A stretch of 64,000 nt of DNA, from positions 1 through 64,000 of the forward strand of contig NZ_JAGHFX010000049.1 in assembly GCF_017888565.1 (NCBI RefSeq). The letters are read 5' to 3'. This document shows, one piece after another, positions 52,540 to 59,636 of this stretch. The notes below the pieces were generated by a model, which saw only the letters and a program-made list of their open reading frames with translations, ran no database searches and was not told the origin of the DNA. A program made the translations under genes and the position numbers. Position 1 is the first letter of the stretch; each line of letters starts with the position of its first letter. The stretch is from Clostridium sp. (GTDB lineage: Bacteria > Bacillota > Clostridia > Clostridiales > Clostridiaceae).

Positions 52540-52671
52540 ATGGATAAAAGTAAATAAATACTTAATATGCTTTTGAAATATGGGCTTTCATATTAGTTTA
52601 ATAAATAATATTATATAGGTAACCTAATATATAATGTTAAGAAATTTATGTCAGAAAGGTGAGTAGATTAA

Positions 52672-53358
52672 ATGGCTTTATATGCTATTTCAGATCTTCA
52701 TCTTGCTTTTACAACAGACAAACCAATGGACATATTTGGAGCAAAGTGGCTTAAGCATGATGAAAAGATAAAAGAAAATTGGATAAAAAAAATTACAGAT
52801 GAAGATACAGTGCTTATAGCTGGAGATATATCCTGGTCAATGAGATCAGATGAAAGTAAAGTTGATTTAGATTGGATAGATGCGTTACCAGGAAAGAAGA
52901 TAATTTCTAAGGGAAACCATGATTATTGGTGGGGTGGAATATCAAAGCTTAATAGAATGTATGAAAATACGAAATTTCTTCAAAATAATTTTTATACTTA
53001 CGAGGATTATGCTATTTGTGGATCTAGAGGTTGGATTTTAGAAGGTAGTGATAGATTTACTGAAAAGGATAAAAAAATATTTGATAGAGAAATTATAAGA
53101 TTAAGGCTTTCATTAGATAAGGCAAAAGAAGCAGGATATGAAAATATAGTAGTTATGATACACTATCCCCCAATGAATGAGAAAAGAGAAAGTTCAGCAT
53201 TTACTGATTTATTTAAAGAGTATGGAGTAAAAAAAGTAATATATGGACATTTACATGGACCTTCATTAGCAAATGTTCTTAATGGAGAACATGAAGGAAT
53301 TGAATATTTAATGACAGCATGTGATTTTTTAAATTTCGATCCAAAAAAAATATTATAA
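52672..53358 (+). CDS. Calcineurin-like metallophosphoesterase
   Basis: This 228-residue cytosolic enzyme has metal motifs in order: ISDLHLA, IAGDISWSM, SKGNHDYWWG, MIHYPP and IYGHLHG. It corresponds to the YkuE-like/hypothetical phosphoesterase group in clostridia that acts on phosphoesters of unknown identity. AGAAAGGTGAG lies before the ATG. It is monocistronic with a strong terminator. Confidence 0.88.
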   Translation: MALYAISDLHLAFTTDKPMDIFGAKWLKHDEKIKENWIKKITDEDTVLIAGDISWSMRSDESKVDLDWIDALPGKKIISKGNHDYWWGGISKLNRMYENTKFLQNNFYTYEDYAICGSRGWILEGSDRFTEKDKKIFDREIIRLRLSLDKAKEAGYENIVVMIHYPPMNEKRESSAFTDLFKEYGVKKVIYGHLHGPSLANVLNGEHEGIEYLMTACDFLNFDPKKIL

Positions 53359-53360
53359 AA

Positions 53361-53410
53361 AATAAACTATAAAGTATATTATTAAATTTACTTTATAGTT
53401 TATTTTTTAT
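53361..53410 (+). terminator. Terminator after the metallophosphoesterase gene
   Basis: A 16-bp stem, aataaactataaagta / tactttatagtttatt, followed by TTTTT. Confidence 0.85.
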
Positions 53411-53465
53411 ATACCCTTTTTAAAGATGAAAATTTAAGGAATTACGAAAATTGTGAAAATTAGGA

Positions 53466-53495
53466 TTGACATTATCAACCGAATTAAGGTAAAAT
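53466..53495 (+). promoter_or_regulatory. Promoter of the GH89 gene
   Basis: TTGACA, 18 bases, TAAAAT. Transcription would start near 53502, giving an 85-base leader before the terminator at 53551-53588. Confidence 0.7.
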
Positions 53496-53522
53496 TTTCT
53501 ATGTAAATGAATACAAATCAAA

Positions 53523-53556
53523 TTAGCGTGTAACTATCAGAATAGGCATTAGCTAA
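53523..53556 (+). promoter_or_regulatory. RAT-like antiterminator hairpin in the GH89 leader
   Basis: Lower stem TTAGC/GCTAA, upper stem CTAT-CAGA-ATAG, with conserved GTaAC and AGGCA elements in the internal loop. This matches the layout of ribonucleic antiterminators (RAT) bound by BglG/LicT-type proteins. Its 3' arm shares bases with the 5' arm of the following terminator, so only one can form at a time. Confidence 0.45.
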
Positions 53557-53590
53557 AAAGAGAAGACTCTCTTTTTAGCTTTTTTTTTAT
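53551..53590 (+). terminator. Leader terminator upstream of the GH89 start
   Basis: A 12-bp perfect stem, agctaaaaagag / ctctttttagct, followed by eight T. It lies between the GH89 promoter and its ATG, so transcription would stop unless antitermination occurs. Confidence 0.88.
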
Positions 53591-53651
53591 TACTTTAAGA
53601 TTTGTATATTCGTTTAAAAAATAATTTAAACCCTTAAGGAGGAAATTATTA

Positions 53652-56600
53652 ATGAAAAACGTTAAAAAGCATATAGCTAAAGCCCTAGCTATAACCATTA
53701 CTTCAAGTATGCTTACTTCTATACCATTTGAAGTACAAGCTTCTGTAGGTAATAAAATAAGTGCTGATAATATAAAGATATCAGCGAAAAGCAATACTTC
53801 TGGCCATGATGTAGAGCTTGCTGTTGATGGTGATCCAAATACTTATTGGGAATCATCAAATCATTATAGATGGGTAGAATTAGATTTAGATGGAACATAT
53901 GATTTATCAGGAATTAAGTTAGTTAATAAAACCAATGGATATTATAATTATAATATTTATGTGACAACTGATGGAGAAAATTATACAAAAGTTGCATATA
54001 AAGATAACGAAGAAAAGGCAACAGTTGAAGGTGATTTATATAATTTAAATAATGTTAAGGCATCTAAGATAAGAATAGATGTAACATTCAGTTCAGAGAA
54101 TAATGATTCAAATATAGCTGAAGTTGAACTATATGGTGAAAAAGTTTCAGATGTAAAGCCAGAAGAAAAAGCTATAAGTGTAGAGAACTTTAGTGAAACA
54201 AAATGGGCAGAAGAATATAATAAATTTGAAAATAATCAAGATTATGCATCTCAAAAGACAATAAAAGAAATGCATGATATGGTAGGAAGAGTTATTGGAG
54301 ATGAATACAAAGATAAGTTCCAATTTGAGTTAATAAGCCAAACTTCATCAGGAACAGATGTTTTTGAAGTTGAGGATGGGGCTGATGGAAAGGTAGTAGT
54401 TAGAGGAAATGATGGTGTATCACTTGCATCAGGATTCAATTATTATTTAAAAAATTATGCAAAGGTTATGTACAACCCTATAATGGGATCAAATTTAAAT
54501 ATGCCAGAAGTTTTACCTAGTGTTGGAGAAAAGGTTGTGATAGATACACCATATGAACAAAGATATTCTTTAAACTTTTGTACTTATTCATATACAATGG
54601 CATTTTGGGATTGGAATGAGTATGAAGCATTTTTAGATTGGTCAGCAATGAATGGATACAACTTAATTTTAGATATTGTTGGACAAGAGGAAGTTTTAAG
54701 AAGAACTTTAAATAAATTTGGATATTCAGATGAAGAAATAAAAGAATATATATCAGGTCCAGGTTATTTTGCATGGTTCTATATGCAAAACATGACAAGC
54801 TTTGGAGGACCATTACCAAATAGTTGGTTTGAAGATAGAACAGAGCTTGGAAGAAAAATGCATGATAGAATGCAAACTCTAGGTATAACACCAGTACTTC
54901 AAGGATATTCAGGTGGTGTTCCTTTAGATTTTACTGAGAAAAATCCAGATGCTCAAGTTATTAAACAAGGTGAGTGGTGTGGTTTCGATAGACCTGACAT
55001 GCTTAGAACCTATGTGGCAGAAGGCGAAGAGGATTACTTTGCAAAAGTTGCAGATGCATTTTATGAAGCACAAAAAGAAGTTTTTGGTGAAGTAAGCGAT
55101 TACTATGCTGTTGATCCATTTCATGAAGGTGGAAATACTGGAGGATTAGATAATGGCACAATTTATTCAACAGTTCAAAATAAAATGTTAGAGCATGACG
55201 AAGATGCAATATGGGTAATTCAGCACTGGCAAGGAAATCCGGATAATGCAAAGCTTTCAGGTCTTAATAAAGAGCACTCATTAATATTAGATCTTAATTC
55301 AGACTTAAATCCAGACTGGCAAAGGTTTGACAACCAAGATTTACCTTGGGTATGGAATATGCTTCATAACTTTGGTGGAAGAATGGGATTAGATGGGCAG
55401 CCGGAAATATTAGCGAATAATATCCCAAGTGCCTATGCAAATTCAGAAAACATGAAGGGGATAGGTATTACTCCAGAAGCAATAAATAATAGTCCAATAG
55501 TTTATGAGTTAATTGGAGATATGATTTGGACAAGAGATGCTATAGATTTTAGACAATGGACTATGGATTATATTGAAAGAAGATATGGTAAGGAAAATGC
55601 TGATATTCAAGAAGCATGGAGAATATTATTAGAAACTGCATATAAAAAGACAAATGATTACTATCAAGGAGCAGCAGAATCAGTAATAAATGCAAGACCA
55701 GATAAGCAAATCAATAGTGCTTCAACATGGGGACATAGTAAAATACCTTATGATAAGGCAGAGTTAGAAAAAGCTTTAGAACTATTTATAAATGCATATG
55801 AGGATTTAAAAGGTAGTGAAGCATTTATATATGATTTCCTAGATGTAACAAAGCAAGTTTTAGCGAACTCCGCACAAGAATATCATAAAGAAATGGTTGC
55901 TGCTTATGATAACGGAGACATAAATAACTTCAAAAAGATTTCTACTCATTTCCTAGAGTTAATAAAGCTTCAAGAAAATGTTTTATCTACTAGTCCAGAA
56001 TTCTTAGTAGGAACATGGATAGAGCAGGCTAGAACTATGCTTGAAGGTGCAGATGATTGGACTATGGATTTATTTGAATTCAATGCAAGAGCCTTAATAA
56101 CTACATGGGGGGATTATAAAAATGGTTCTTTAAAGGATTATTCAAATAGACAATGGGCTGGTTTAACTAATGATTTATATTATAAGAGATGGGAAATGTG
56201 GGTTAATAACGTAACAAATGAATTAGAAGGAAAACCTACTCAAAATATAAATTGGCATAAAGTTGAATATAAGTGGGCTAATGAAAAAACTACTGAAAAT
56301 AATAAATATGCAACAACAGGTTCAGGAGAAGATTTAGGAGCTCTTGCAAAAGAAGCTATGGATAAATTCTCTGTAACTAATATGGAAGCATTCTTAGAAG
56401 GTGGATCAAGTGCAGTAGAGAAGGCTAATATTGCACTAGGTAAAAACGTAATAATAGAAGGCGTTGAAACAGCTTCAGGATTCCCGGCATCTAATTTAAC
56501 TGATGGAACTACAGGAAGTGCGTGGATGGCATCAGAAGCTAAATGGCCTGTTACAATGACAATAGATTTAGAAGAGGAAAAGAATCTTAACGGGATAGCT

Positions 56601-59600
56601 TTTGCTCCAAATCAAGCAGCAGGTGGATTCCCAATAACTTATAAAGTAGAAGTTAGAAACGGAGATAATTGGAGTACTGTTGCAGAAACTATTGATGGTA
56701 CTATTACAGGAACCATATCAATAGATTACAAAGGAACTGCTAATGCTGTTAGATTTACTTTTAATAGTACAGATTCAACTCTAGTGCCAGAAATGAGAGA
56801 ATTAATGGTATATGAAAGTGCAGAACAAAAAGTAGAATACGATAATATTGCTCTTAATAAAGCAGTAGATGTAAAAAATGTAGGTACAGATAGACCAGCA
56901 TCAAATATAACAGATGGAGACGATAATACATTCTGGTCTGCAACAAGTGAAGGAATAGGTGCTGAGATAACTGTAGATTTAGAAAAGAATGAAATGGTTG
57001 ATTTAGTAGAGCTTGTTTTCGAAAAAGCAAAATTACCATTCCAATTTGAAGTGAGAGCAATTGAAGTGGACGGAACTGAAACAACTATTCTGGACAAAAA
57101 ATCAGAAGTTAATGCACTTGAAAGAAGATATCAAATTCCTGTAGGAAGGGAAATAAAAGGTATTAAATATATATTAACAGGTAAAAGTGGTGCTGGTGAC
57201 TTTCCGGGGGCATGGGCAGCTTTAGCTGAAATTAAGGCTTTAAGAGAAAAAGAAGTTGTAGTTGAAGCAGTAAATGTAGCTTTAGACAAACCTGTAACAG
57301 GAAGTGAAGCACAAAGCGGAAAACCTCTTTCAAATATAACAGATGGAAAAGAGGATACATTATGGATATCAAATGGTGGAGTAATACCAGCAAATGCTCA
57401 AATTGATTTAATTAACTCGTATTTCGTTGAAAATATTGAGTTAACCTTTGAAAAGGAAGGGCTACCATTCCAATTCTATGTTGATGTAATTGACTCAAAT
57501 GATGTAGTTCATACAGTATTAGATATGAGAGAAAATGATACAGTCATAGATCGTAAATACACAATACCTGTAGGAAAGAATATTAAATCTATAGATGTTA
57601 AAATAACTGGTAATAATGGACAAGGAAATGCTTATTTAGCATGGCCAGCCATAGCAGAAGTTAAGGCTTACTCAAAGCCAGAAAATGTAGCTTTAAATGC
57701 AATAGTAAATCCAGATACAGGAGCAGCATTAGTAGATGGAAATGAAACAAGTGGAATTGCAATAGAAGCAGAAGACGCTAAAGAATATGTTATAGACTTT
57801 GGTAAGATAGTGGATATTAACACAATTGAAACAATAGGTAAAGCAGATGGTGGATTAAAATACACAGTTGAGTATAGAAGTATGGAAGATGAAAATGAGT
57901 GGATAAGCTTCTTAGATAAGAGCGCTAACACTAATGCCTCAGAAAAATTATTAACTGCATTAAAGAATCCAGTTACTACAAATGCAGTGAAAGTTAAGTT
58001 TATTAATGAGTCATTTATTATAAGTGAGTTTAAAGCTTATAAGGCAGATACAACAGGTAAGCTATTAACTTATATAGGTGAATTAGAAAAAACTTATAAT
58101 AGTGCTATTGTTGGAGAGCTTTCAGGACAATATCCACAAGAAGCTAAAGATGCATTATTATTAGCAATAAATGATGCAAAGGCTGCTTCAACCAAAGGAA
58201 TTAATTCTATAGAAGTAGATCAAGAAATAGCTAAACTTAAGACTGCGTTAAATAGTTTCTATTCACAAGTTGTTACAATTAATAGAAGACCTCTATTAAC
58301 AGCAGTTAGCGATGCTAATATAGTATTAAATGCTTTAAAAGATACTTTAAATACAGATGAGAAATTAGAAAGTAAAGCTATAATAGATGATAGAATAGCT
58401 AAATTAGAAGCAGGAATAGCAGAAGCAAATGGAGTTTATGAAACTAAGTCTGTAACTCAAGGACAATTAAATGAAGCTGAAGCTAAGTTAAGAATATTAA
58501 TTGAGGAAGGCTATGCAGAATTAGATGCTCATAATAAATATAAGGTAGAGTTATCTATAGCAGAAGATCGAGTAAATAATGCAGTTGCTGGTGAAGGAAA
58601 CGGACAGTATTTACAATCAGATATTGATGTCTTAAAAGCAAGTATTATAAAGTTAAAAGCAGATTATGAAATAGCTAAAACTGTGGAAGAAGTAAATTCT
58701 ATTACAGAATCACTAAAAAAAGCTGTAAAGGATTTTGAAGCAAAAGTTATAGAAGTTAATAAGGAATCATTAGCTAATGCAATATCAGATGCTGAAGAAG
58801 TTGTTAATAATGCAGAAGGAAAATATTATTCCTCAGCAATCGAAGTATTTATAAATGAAATTAATAGTGCTAAGGCTATTTTTGATGATGCAAATGCTAG
58901 TCAATCATCAGTAAATAATGCAGTTAAATCTTTATTAGATGCACAAGCTAAGCTATTAGAAGCAATTCTTCCAGATAAAACTGAATTAAAGAATTTAGTT
59001 AATGATGCAAATACTTTAGTTAAGAAATTTCAAGGATATAATAGCTTAAAAGATTTAAAAGAAGAGTTAGAAGATGCAATTAAAAATGCTAATATTGTTA
59101 TTGAAAATGAAAATGCAACAGCAGAGCAAATTTCAGAAGTAACTAATGTGTTAAAGAATAGTATTAGAAAATCAAATGATAGCATTAAAGAATTCGAATC
59201 AGTTTCAAAATCTGAGCTTCAAGATACTATAGATAAAGCTGAAGCCTTAAATAAAAAGGATTATACAAAGAATAGTTATTCTGTGTTAGAAGAAGCTATT
59301 AAAGAAGCTAAAAAACTTATAAATAAAAAAGAGGTTACTCAAAGTGAGGTTGATGCAGCTACTGCAAGAATTAATAATGCTATAAAAAATCTTGTTAAGA
59401 TTAATCAAGATAATAATGGCGGAAATAATAACGGTGGAAGCAACAATAGCGGAAGTAATAACAGTGGAAACAATAATGGTTCAATCAATAATGGAAGCAA
59501 TAACAGCGGTAACAACAATAACGAAAATAGTAATTTACCACAAACAGGAGGTGCTTCACCTATAGTAACCTTAGTTTTAGGTAGTGCGGTTGCAGCAGCT

Positions 59601-59636
59601 GGTGGACTATTCTTAAAAAAGAAAAAAGAAGATTAA
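53652..59636 (+). CDS. Sortase-anchored GH89 alpha-N-acetylglucosaminidase with CBM32 and FIVAR modules
   Basis: This 1994-residue exoenzyme resembles C. perfringens CpGH89. Signal peptide (~1-31, KALAITITSSMLTSIPFEVQA), CBM32 (~37-165), NAGLU N-domain and barrel (~180-650) and a C-domain to ~900. In DPFHEGGNTGG, Glu492 is the probable acid; in GITPEAIN, Glu609 is the nucleophile. Their spacing (117) is close to the 118 recalled for CpGH89. Four more CBM32-like domains (~925, 1065, 1207, 1344), then FIVAR-type helical repeats (~1460-1910), an Asn/Gly/Ser-rich linker and LPQTG (1962-1966) with hydrophobic tail and KKKK. The family removes alpha-1,4-linked GlcNAc from mucin glycans or heparan sulfate. 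AAGGAGG precedes the ATG. The leader points to regulated expression. Confidence 0.95.
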   Translation: MKNVKKHIAKALAITITSSMLTSIPFEVQASVGNKISADNIKISAKSNTSGHDVELAVDGDPNTYWESSNHYRWVELDLDGTYDLSGIKLVNKTNGYYNYNIYVTTDGENYTKVAYKDNEEKATVEGDLYNLNNVKASKIRIDVTFSSENNDSNIAEVELYGEKVSDVKPEEKAISVENFSETKWAEEYNKFENNQDYASQKTIKEMHDMVGRVIGDEYKDKFQFELISQTSSGTDVFEVEDGADGKVVVRGNDGVSLASGFNYYLKNYAKVMYNPIMGSNLNMPEVLPSVGEKVVIDTPYEQRYSLNFCTYSYTMAFWDWNEYEAFLDWSAMNGYNLILDIVGQEEVLRRTLNKFGYSDEEIKEYISGPGYFAWFYMQNMTSFGGPLPNSWFEDRTELGRKMHDRMQTLGITPVLQGYSGGVPLDFTEKNPDAQVIKQGEWCGFDRPDMLRTYVAEGEEDYFAKVADAFYEAQKEVFGEVSDYYAVDPFHEGGNTGGLDNGTIYSTVQNKMLEHDEDAIWVIQHWQGNPDNAKLSGLNKEHSLILDLNSDLNPDWQRFDNQDLPWVWNMLHNFGGRMGLDGQPEILANNIPSAYANSENMKGIGITPEAINNSPIVYELIGDMIWTRDAIDFRQWTMDYIERRYGKENADIQEAWRILLETAYKKTNDYYQGAAESVINARPDKQINSASTWGHSKIPYDKAELEKALELFINAYEDLKGSEAFIYDFLDVTKQVLANSAQEYHKEMVAAYDNGDINNFKKISTHFLELIKLQENVLSTSPEFLVGTWIEQARTMLEGADDWTMDLFEFNARALITTWGDYKNGSLKDYSNRQWAGLTNDLYYKRWEMWVNNVTNELEGKPTQNINWHKVEYKWANEKTTENNKYATTGSGEDLGALAKEAMDKFSVTNMEAFLEGGSSAVEKANIALGKNVIIEGVETASGFPASNLTDGTTGSAWMASEAKWPVTMTIDLEEEKNLNGIAFAPNQAAGGFPITYKVEVRNGDNWSTVAETIDGTITGTISIDYKGTANAVRFTFNSTDSTLVPEMRELMVYESAEQKVEYDNIALNKAVDVKNVGTDRPASNITDGDDNTFWSATSEGIGAEITVDLEKNEMVDLVELVFEKAKLPFQFEVRAIEVDGTETTILDKKSEVNALERRYQIPVGREIKGIKYILTGKSGAGDFPGAWAALAEIKALREKEVVVEAVNVALDKPVTGSEAQSGKPLSNITDGKEDTLWISNGGVIPANAQIDLINSYFVENIELTFEKEGLPFQFYVDVIDSNDVVHTVLDMRENDTVIDRKYTIPVGKNIKSIDVKITGNNGQGNAYLAWPAIAEVKAYSKPENVALNAIVNPDTGAALVDGNETSGIAIEAEDAKEYVIDFGKIVDINTIETIGKADGGLKYTVEYRSMEDENEWISFLDKSANTNASEKLLTALKNPVTTNAVKVKFINESFIISEFKAYKADTTGKLLTYIGELEKTYNSAIVGELSGQYPQEAKDALLLAINDAKAASTKGINSIEVDQEIAKLKTALNSFYSQVVTINRRPLLTAVSDANIVLNALKDTLNTDEKLESKAIIDDRIAKLEAGIAEANGVYETKSVTQGQLNEAEAKLRILIEEGYAELDAHNKYKVELSIAEDRVNNAVAGEGNGQYLQSDIDVLKASIIKLKADYEIAKTVEEVNSITESLKKAVKDFEAKVIEVNKESLANAISDAEEVVNNAEGKYYSSAIEVFINEINSAKAIFDDANASQSSVNNAVKSLLDAQAKLLEAILPDKTELKNLVNDANTLVKKFQGYNSLKDLKEELEDAIKNANIVIENENATAEQISEVTNVLKNSIRKSNDSIKEFESVSKSELQDTIDKAEALNKKDYTKNSYSVLEEAIKEAKKLINKKEVTQSEVDAATARINNAIKNLVKINQDNNGGNNNGGSNNSGSNNSGNNNGSINNGSNNSGNNNNENSNLPQTGGASPIVTLVLGSAVAAAGGLFLKKKKED
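59404..59532 (+). repeat. Asn/Gly/Ser-rich low-complexity linker in the GH89 gene
   Basis: Degenerate tandem GGAAGCAATAACAGC-type units encode a flexible wall-spanning linker just before the sortase signal. Length is likely to vary between strains. Confidence 0.8.

Follow-up and report, generated by a model that had tools for sequence, protein, structure and literature searches.

The control of secreted carbohydrate-acting enzymes by a ribonucleic antiterminator (RAT) and a terminator is well established, as exemplified by the LicT–bglS and SacY–sacB systems of Bacillus subtilis. In the same species, GlcT responds to glucose and is inactivated by phosphorylation of its PRDs when the sugar is absent (PMC12445079). 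In Enterococcus faecalis, NagY is a GlcNAc-responsive antiterminator of both nagY–nagE and hylA, which encodes a hyaluronate lyase (PMC9981650, PMC12502629).

We analyzed 64,000 nucleotides of Clostridium sp. DNA (GCF_017888565.1, contig NZ_JAGHFX010000049.1, positions 1–64,000, forward strand; hereafter, the window), which contains a gene for a GH89 alpha-N-acetylglucosaminidase of 1994 amino acids (53652–59636, forward strand, as are all features of the window given below; Pfam NAGLU, E = 6.5e-111) with F5/8-C and FIVAR domains and an LPXTG anchor (Gram_pos_anchor). A ribosome binding site, AAGGAGG, lies at 53636–53642. An earlier reading of the letters alone (the sequence-only reading) had proposed an antitermination switch of the LicT/BglG type ahead of this gene, and its observation was confirmed. 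A predicted sigma-70-type promoter (53466–53495), with TTGACA at 53466–53471 and TAAAAT at 53490–53495 separated by an 18-nt spacer, scored 11/12 against the consensus and was the best match within 52600–54000. Between this promoter and the start codon lies a RAT hairpin (53523–53556), in which a lower stem pairing TTAGC (53523–53527) with GCTAA (53552–53556) and an upper stem pairing CTAT (53534–53537) with ATAG (53542–53545) across a CAGA loop are separated by a conserved internal loop, GUGUAA on the 5′ side (53528–53533) and GCAUUA on the 3′ side (53546–53551). RNAfold returned these stems as a three-stem hairpin of −7.4 kcal/mol (z = −2.6; 3 of 200 shuffles folded equally well).

The perfect terminator that had been placed just before the gene was also there, with a stem of 13 bp rather than the 12 bp claimed. 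Its arms, AGCTAAAAAGAGA-agac-TCTCTTTTTAGCT, span 53551–53580 around an AGAC tetraloop (−16.4 kcal/mol) and are followed by a T tract (53581–53588); the scan detected no other terminator, with 0.2 expected from shuffles. As the sequence-only reading had noticed, the 3′ arm of the RAT and the 5′ arm of the terminator overlap, sharing the 6 nt at 53551–53556, such that the two hairpins are mutually exclusive. When both were folded together the terminator prevailed (−19.1 kcal/mol overall), which is what one would expect if the RAT hairpin has to be stabilized by a protein for the switch to work. The assignment to the LicT class had to be given up. The loop sequence is that of the GlcT class (GUGUNA / GCAUNA), and the lower internal loop of the LicT/BglG class, of the GGAUUGUUAC / GGCAANACC type, does not occur in this leader.

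To search for related leaders we used R1, a covariance model trained on eight hairpins, of which the window's genome supplied five. Scanned over that genome, it gave eight matches (E = 8e-7 to 0.09), each preceding a gene for the release or import of GlcNAc. The GH89 leader scored highest (42.6 bits, E = 8e-7 for the whole genome), followed by leaders of a GH84 gene (C89:44216, E = 1.1e-6), a GlcNAc-specific EIIBC gene and an EIIA gene on contig C77 (E = 1.7e-6 and 2.9e-6), a GH84 gene at C10:89186 (E = 4.8e-6), a GH20 gene (C96:15131, E = 2.2e-5), and two further GH84 genes at C89:146141 (E = 1.5e-3) and C89:150090 (E = 0.09). The matches at C10:89186, C89:146141 and C89:150090 were outside the training set and are therefore independent predictions, all three before GH84 genes. 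Four of the five GH84 genes of this genome have a RAT leader, and the fifth (G000:C107:55406–56293, L133) has none. By folding, the terminators of the GH20 gene and of one GH84 gene are imperfect, and they were missed by the perfect-stem scan.

We propose, with a probability of about 0.82, that 53466–53590 is a GlcT-type switch through which import of GlcNAc by the phosphotransferase system (PTS) induces GH89 and its co-targets. We hold the RAT–terminator switch and its link to GlcT with high confidence, and the identification of GlcNAc as its signal with moderate confidence. The anatomy of RAT and terminator, their conservation and covariation, the common set of targets and the presence of a glcT can be read from the sequences; protein binding, the direction of control and the signal are all three things that we infer. 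Transcription would begin at the predicted promoter, and by default the 13-bp terminator would fold and halt it before GH89. When the PTS imports its sugar, most likely GlcNAc through a NagE-type EIIBC, phosphorylation of the PRDs would no longer inhibit GlcT, and the freed protein would bind the RAT hairpin, block the terminator and allow GH89 to be produced. One GlcT would serve at least seven more leaders, those of the nagE-type EIIBC, the EIIA, four GH84 genes and one GH20 gene, so that GlcNAc import would call up both the transporter and surface enzymes freeing GlcNAc from mucin or other host glycans. Because the same switch precedes seven other genes for GlcNAc release or import, these enzymes are probably made only while GlcNAc is being imported.

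The signal is where another reading fares best. The same switch might respond to glucose, or to glucose and GlcNAc jointly, as does GlcT–ptsG of B. subtilis. The regulator is a GlcT equivalog, and in B. subtilis it is the glucose EII that controls GlcT (PMC12445079), yet we consider this reading unlikely. The EIIBC beside glcT is GlcNAc-specific (TIGR01998, 629.7 bits against a cut-off of 553.2), and the RAT-bearing EIIBCs that we tested, from the window's genome and three other GH-rich species (K13, G016 and G035), were all GlcNAc-specific, above the TIGR01998 cut-off. In the window's genome the glucose-specific EIIBC (contig C4; TIGR02002, 762 bits) instead lies behind a different antiterminator gene that has a LicT-class RAT, and the hydrolases among the targets come from families known to release GlcNAc or related N-acetylhexosamines. 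With GlcNAc-specific EIIBCs led by RATs and a separate antiterminator for glucose, GlcNAc appears to be the likelier signal. The LicT-like antiterminator gene before the glucose EIIBC (G000:C4:53073–53891, L001) has one in-frame TAG, so the gene may be broken or the assembly wrong at this point.

The sequence-only reading had suggested a PTS antiterminator of the BglG family and called for a search for its gene. Such a regulator fits the GH89 leader, and its likely gene is a glcT that lies beyond the window, on contig C77. Seven genes with a CAT_RBD domain are present in the genome, of which one is a true glcT (G000:C77:12644–13504), encoding a CAT_RBD domain and two PRD stretches and scoring 324.8 bits against the cut-off of 320 of the GlcT equivalog NF047357, which places it with GlcT and not LicT. 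The PRD histidines are kept at the motifs expected for the family (DHL, LHIH, THIR and MHIE). This glcT adjoins the RAT-led EIIA and EIIBC genes and has no RAT of its own. A gene for lacto-N-biose phosphorylase (L038:24–944) shares the contig with glcT and the GlcNAc PTS genes.

It is nevertheless conceivable that one of the other BglG-family antiterminators of the genome, rather than GlcT, reads the RAT, given the seven CAT_RBD genes and the six genomes of the genus, among them G036 with its GH84 target, that have RAT matches although no glcT in them exceeds 280 bits. Two lines of evidence make this decidedly improbable. Several of the other antiterminators have LicT-class RATs of their own, which differ from the RAT of the window and were absent from the matches of the R1 genome scan. 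In addition, glcT neighbors RAT-led genes and tracks the presence of RATs across the genus, where a gap in score divides true glcT genes (at least 283 bits) from LicT-like ones (at most 258 bits): of 39 genomes with glcT, 36 had a RAT, versus 6 of 21 without (Fisher p = 5.5e-7, uncorrected for kinship). Moreover, GH89 is immediately preceded by a glcT in C. celatum, K13 and D53t1, encoding a protein of 288–290 amino acids that scores 313–315 bits with NF047357 (just below the cut-off of 320) and 203–207 bits as LicT, and this GlcT-like neighbor pointed us to the cognate regulator. K13 and D53t1 (G032 and G057) each carry two copies of glcT, one beside GH89 and the other beside the GlcNAc PTS genes, a possible case of specialization.

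That GlcT reads a functional switch, as we propose, is further supported by the leaders of the genus as a whole. At a threshold of E ≤ 0.01, R1 found matches in 42 of 60 genus genomes, and for 104 leaders, including those of the window's genome, we examined the first downstream gene, assigning classes by BLAST against proteins of the same genome and using Pfam for a sample of the remainder. A gene for an EIIA, an EIIBC or a GH84, GH89, GH20 or GH3 enzyme followed 91 of the 104: 37 EIIA, 24 EIIBC (a class that, because of the BLAST procedure, takes in some more distant members of the glucose/GlcNAc EIIBC family), 19 GH84, 6 GH89, 3 GH20 and 2 GH3. The rest preceded a mannose-PTS EIIAB gene (6), a chemotaxis receptor gene (1), a contig end (4) or no sensible gene (2). 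An overlapping terminator like that of GH89 was found in 89 of 104 leaders, compared with 12.9% when the downstream sequence was shuffled, and a terminator stem of at least 10 bp in 83 of 104, compared with 1.5%. The strict scan, which misses imperfect stems, detected the overlap in 6/6 GH89, 24/24 EIIBC, 36/37 EIIA and 16/19 GH84 leaders. A promoter matching at least 10 of 12 consensus positions lay upstream of the RAT in 87 of 104 leaders versus 12 of 104 after shuffling.

Covariation, which the sequence-only reading had named as a check, was far above both shuffles and slid controls. In 105 aligned hairpins (85 distinct), the helices contained 189 double-change cells compared with 72 in shuffles, for a covariation score of 0.693 versus 0.367, a value that none of 500 shuffles reached. 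Standard pairs made up 88.2% of pair cells, with changes on both sides at all eight pairs. The alignment had itself been fitted to the model, but aligning the first eight hairpins with MAFFT led to the same result. The internal loop is shared by nearly all of the hairpins, with GUGYNA on the 5′ side (positions 1–3 and 6 invariant or nearly so) and GCAUNA on the 3′ side. A constitutive leader whose terminator derives from a decayed element, or a hairpin formed by chance, would suit the modest z-score of the RAT hairpin taken alone, but is very improbable in light of the genome-wide E value of the GH89 leader, the compensatory changes, the conserved geometry of the overlap and the coherence of the targets. 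Promoter, leader and terminator are also the anatomy of T-boxes, metabolite riboswitches and leader-peptide attenuators, but such an RNA is scarcely credible here, where no Rfam family reached its gathering score in the window (the leader had only chance-level matches at relaxed thresholds) and the single short reading frame upstream of the terminator (53507–53533, 8 codons) lacks an evident ribosome site.

Several leaders in the survey depart from the common pattern. Those before mannose-PTS EIIAB genes (L052, L068, L112, L113, L122 and L123) have GlcT-class RAT-like hairpins with no overlapping terminator in the strict scan, and possibly reflect another mode of control. One chemotaxis receptor gene (dCache, MCP; L083, G041:C282:18343) follows a RAT with an overlapping terminator, and the two RAT-led GH3 genes (L106 and L114, in G014 and G016) encode apparently secreted enzymes. 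Sites resembling the cre of catabolite control (TGAAANCGNTNNCA) lie upstream of several RAT leaders (L038:6325–6338; L048, L050, L051, L086, L087 and L108), which suggests a second layer of control.

Turning to GH89 itself, we found the same leader before five further close orthologues (74–76% identical), with the same anatomy but different sequence in C. celatum DSM 1785, Clostridium sp. K13, Clostridium sp. D53t1 and C. sardiniense DSM 2632. The sequence-only reading would have fallen had related leaders lacked the paired elements; all six GH89 genes in glcT-bearing genomes of the genus carry them. The seventh GH89 gene of the genus (G025) has no RAT and lies in an incomplete genome in which neither glcT nor a RAT was detected. 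Outside the genus, GH89 genes of 33–65% identity have no RAT, including one in the wider family (G199, 65%), and two of those genomes have RATs elsewhere. GH89 therefore probably acquired the switch within a single clade. The G199 gene, the RAT-less fifth GH84 gene of the window's genome and the six genomes with RATs but no clear glcT count against our proposal. The GH89 of G016 matches solved GH89 chains, presumably from C. perfringens, well, but the score says that it is a different protein, and we dropped the idea that G016 is C. perfringens.

More broadly, we think there is a good chance that in this clade of gut Clostridium GlcT acts as a GlcNAc-sensing master switch for dispersed secreted hexosaminidases (GH89, GH84, GH20 and GH3) together with the GlcNAc PTS, each gene having gained its RAT leader separately, and that some species have placed a second glcT beside GH89. 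If so, foraging on mucin and host glycans by gut clostridia would come down to one testable control circuit, in which GlcNAc import switches on surface enzymes that free more GlcNAc, and proteins annotated as glucose antiterminator GlcT would have a probable role in the response to GlcNAc. The RAT model, which has no Rfam counterpart, also offers a way to find co-regulated glycan-degrading genes.

How does this circuit compare with those already described? Our searches of an open-licence library turned up no paper on antitermination control of any GH89, but with the precedents of E. faecalis NagY and of sacB and bglS the mechanism is not new. LicT–bglS and SacY–sacB differ from the Clostridium system in the lower internal loop of the RAT and in their sugars. 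NagY, the closest precedent, is likewise a BglG-family protein acting on RAT–terminator leaders, those of a GlcNAc PTS and of an enzyme secreted to act on host glycans, but its RAT (UUUCAUGUGACUAG...CUAGGCAUGGAA) differs from that of the window, its target is a hyaluronate lyase rather than a GH89, and nagY controls its own operon whereas the Clostridium glcT lacks a RAT. Membership of the NagY regulon was rejected, as its consensus ends in GCRUGGA (PMC9981650) and the window reads GGCAUUAGC. The GlcT–ptsG system of B. subtilis (RAT gswA) shares the GlcT equivalog (NF047357) and a RAT overlapping the terminator. We take its ptsG RAT to read ACGUGUUACUG...CAGGCAUGAGU, which would match that of the window. 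Unlike B. subtilis, Clostridium has a GlcNAc-specific EIIBC and a separate RAT-led EIIA, and most of its targets are secreted glycosidases scattered across the genome. What appears to be new is thus a GlcT-class regulon of multiple hexosaminidases in Clostridium, GH89 included.
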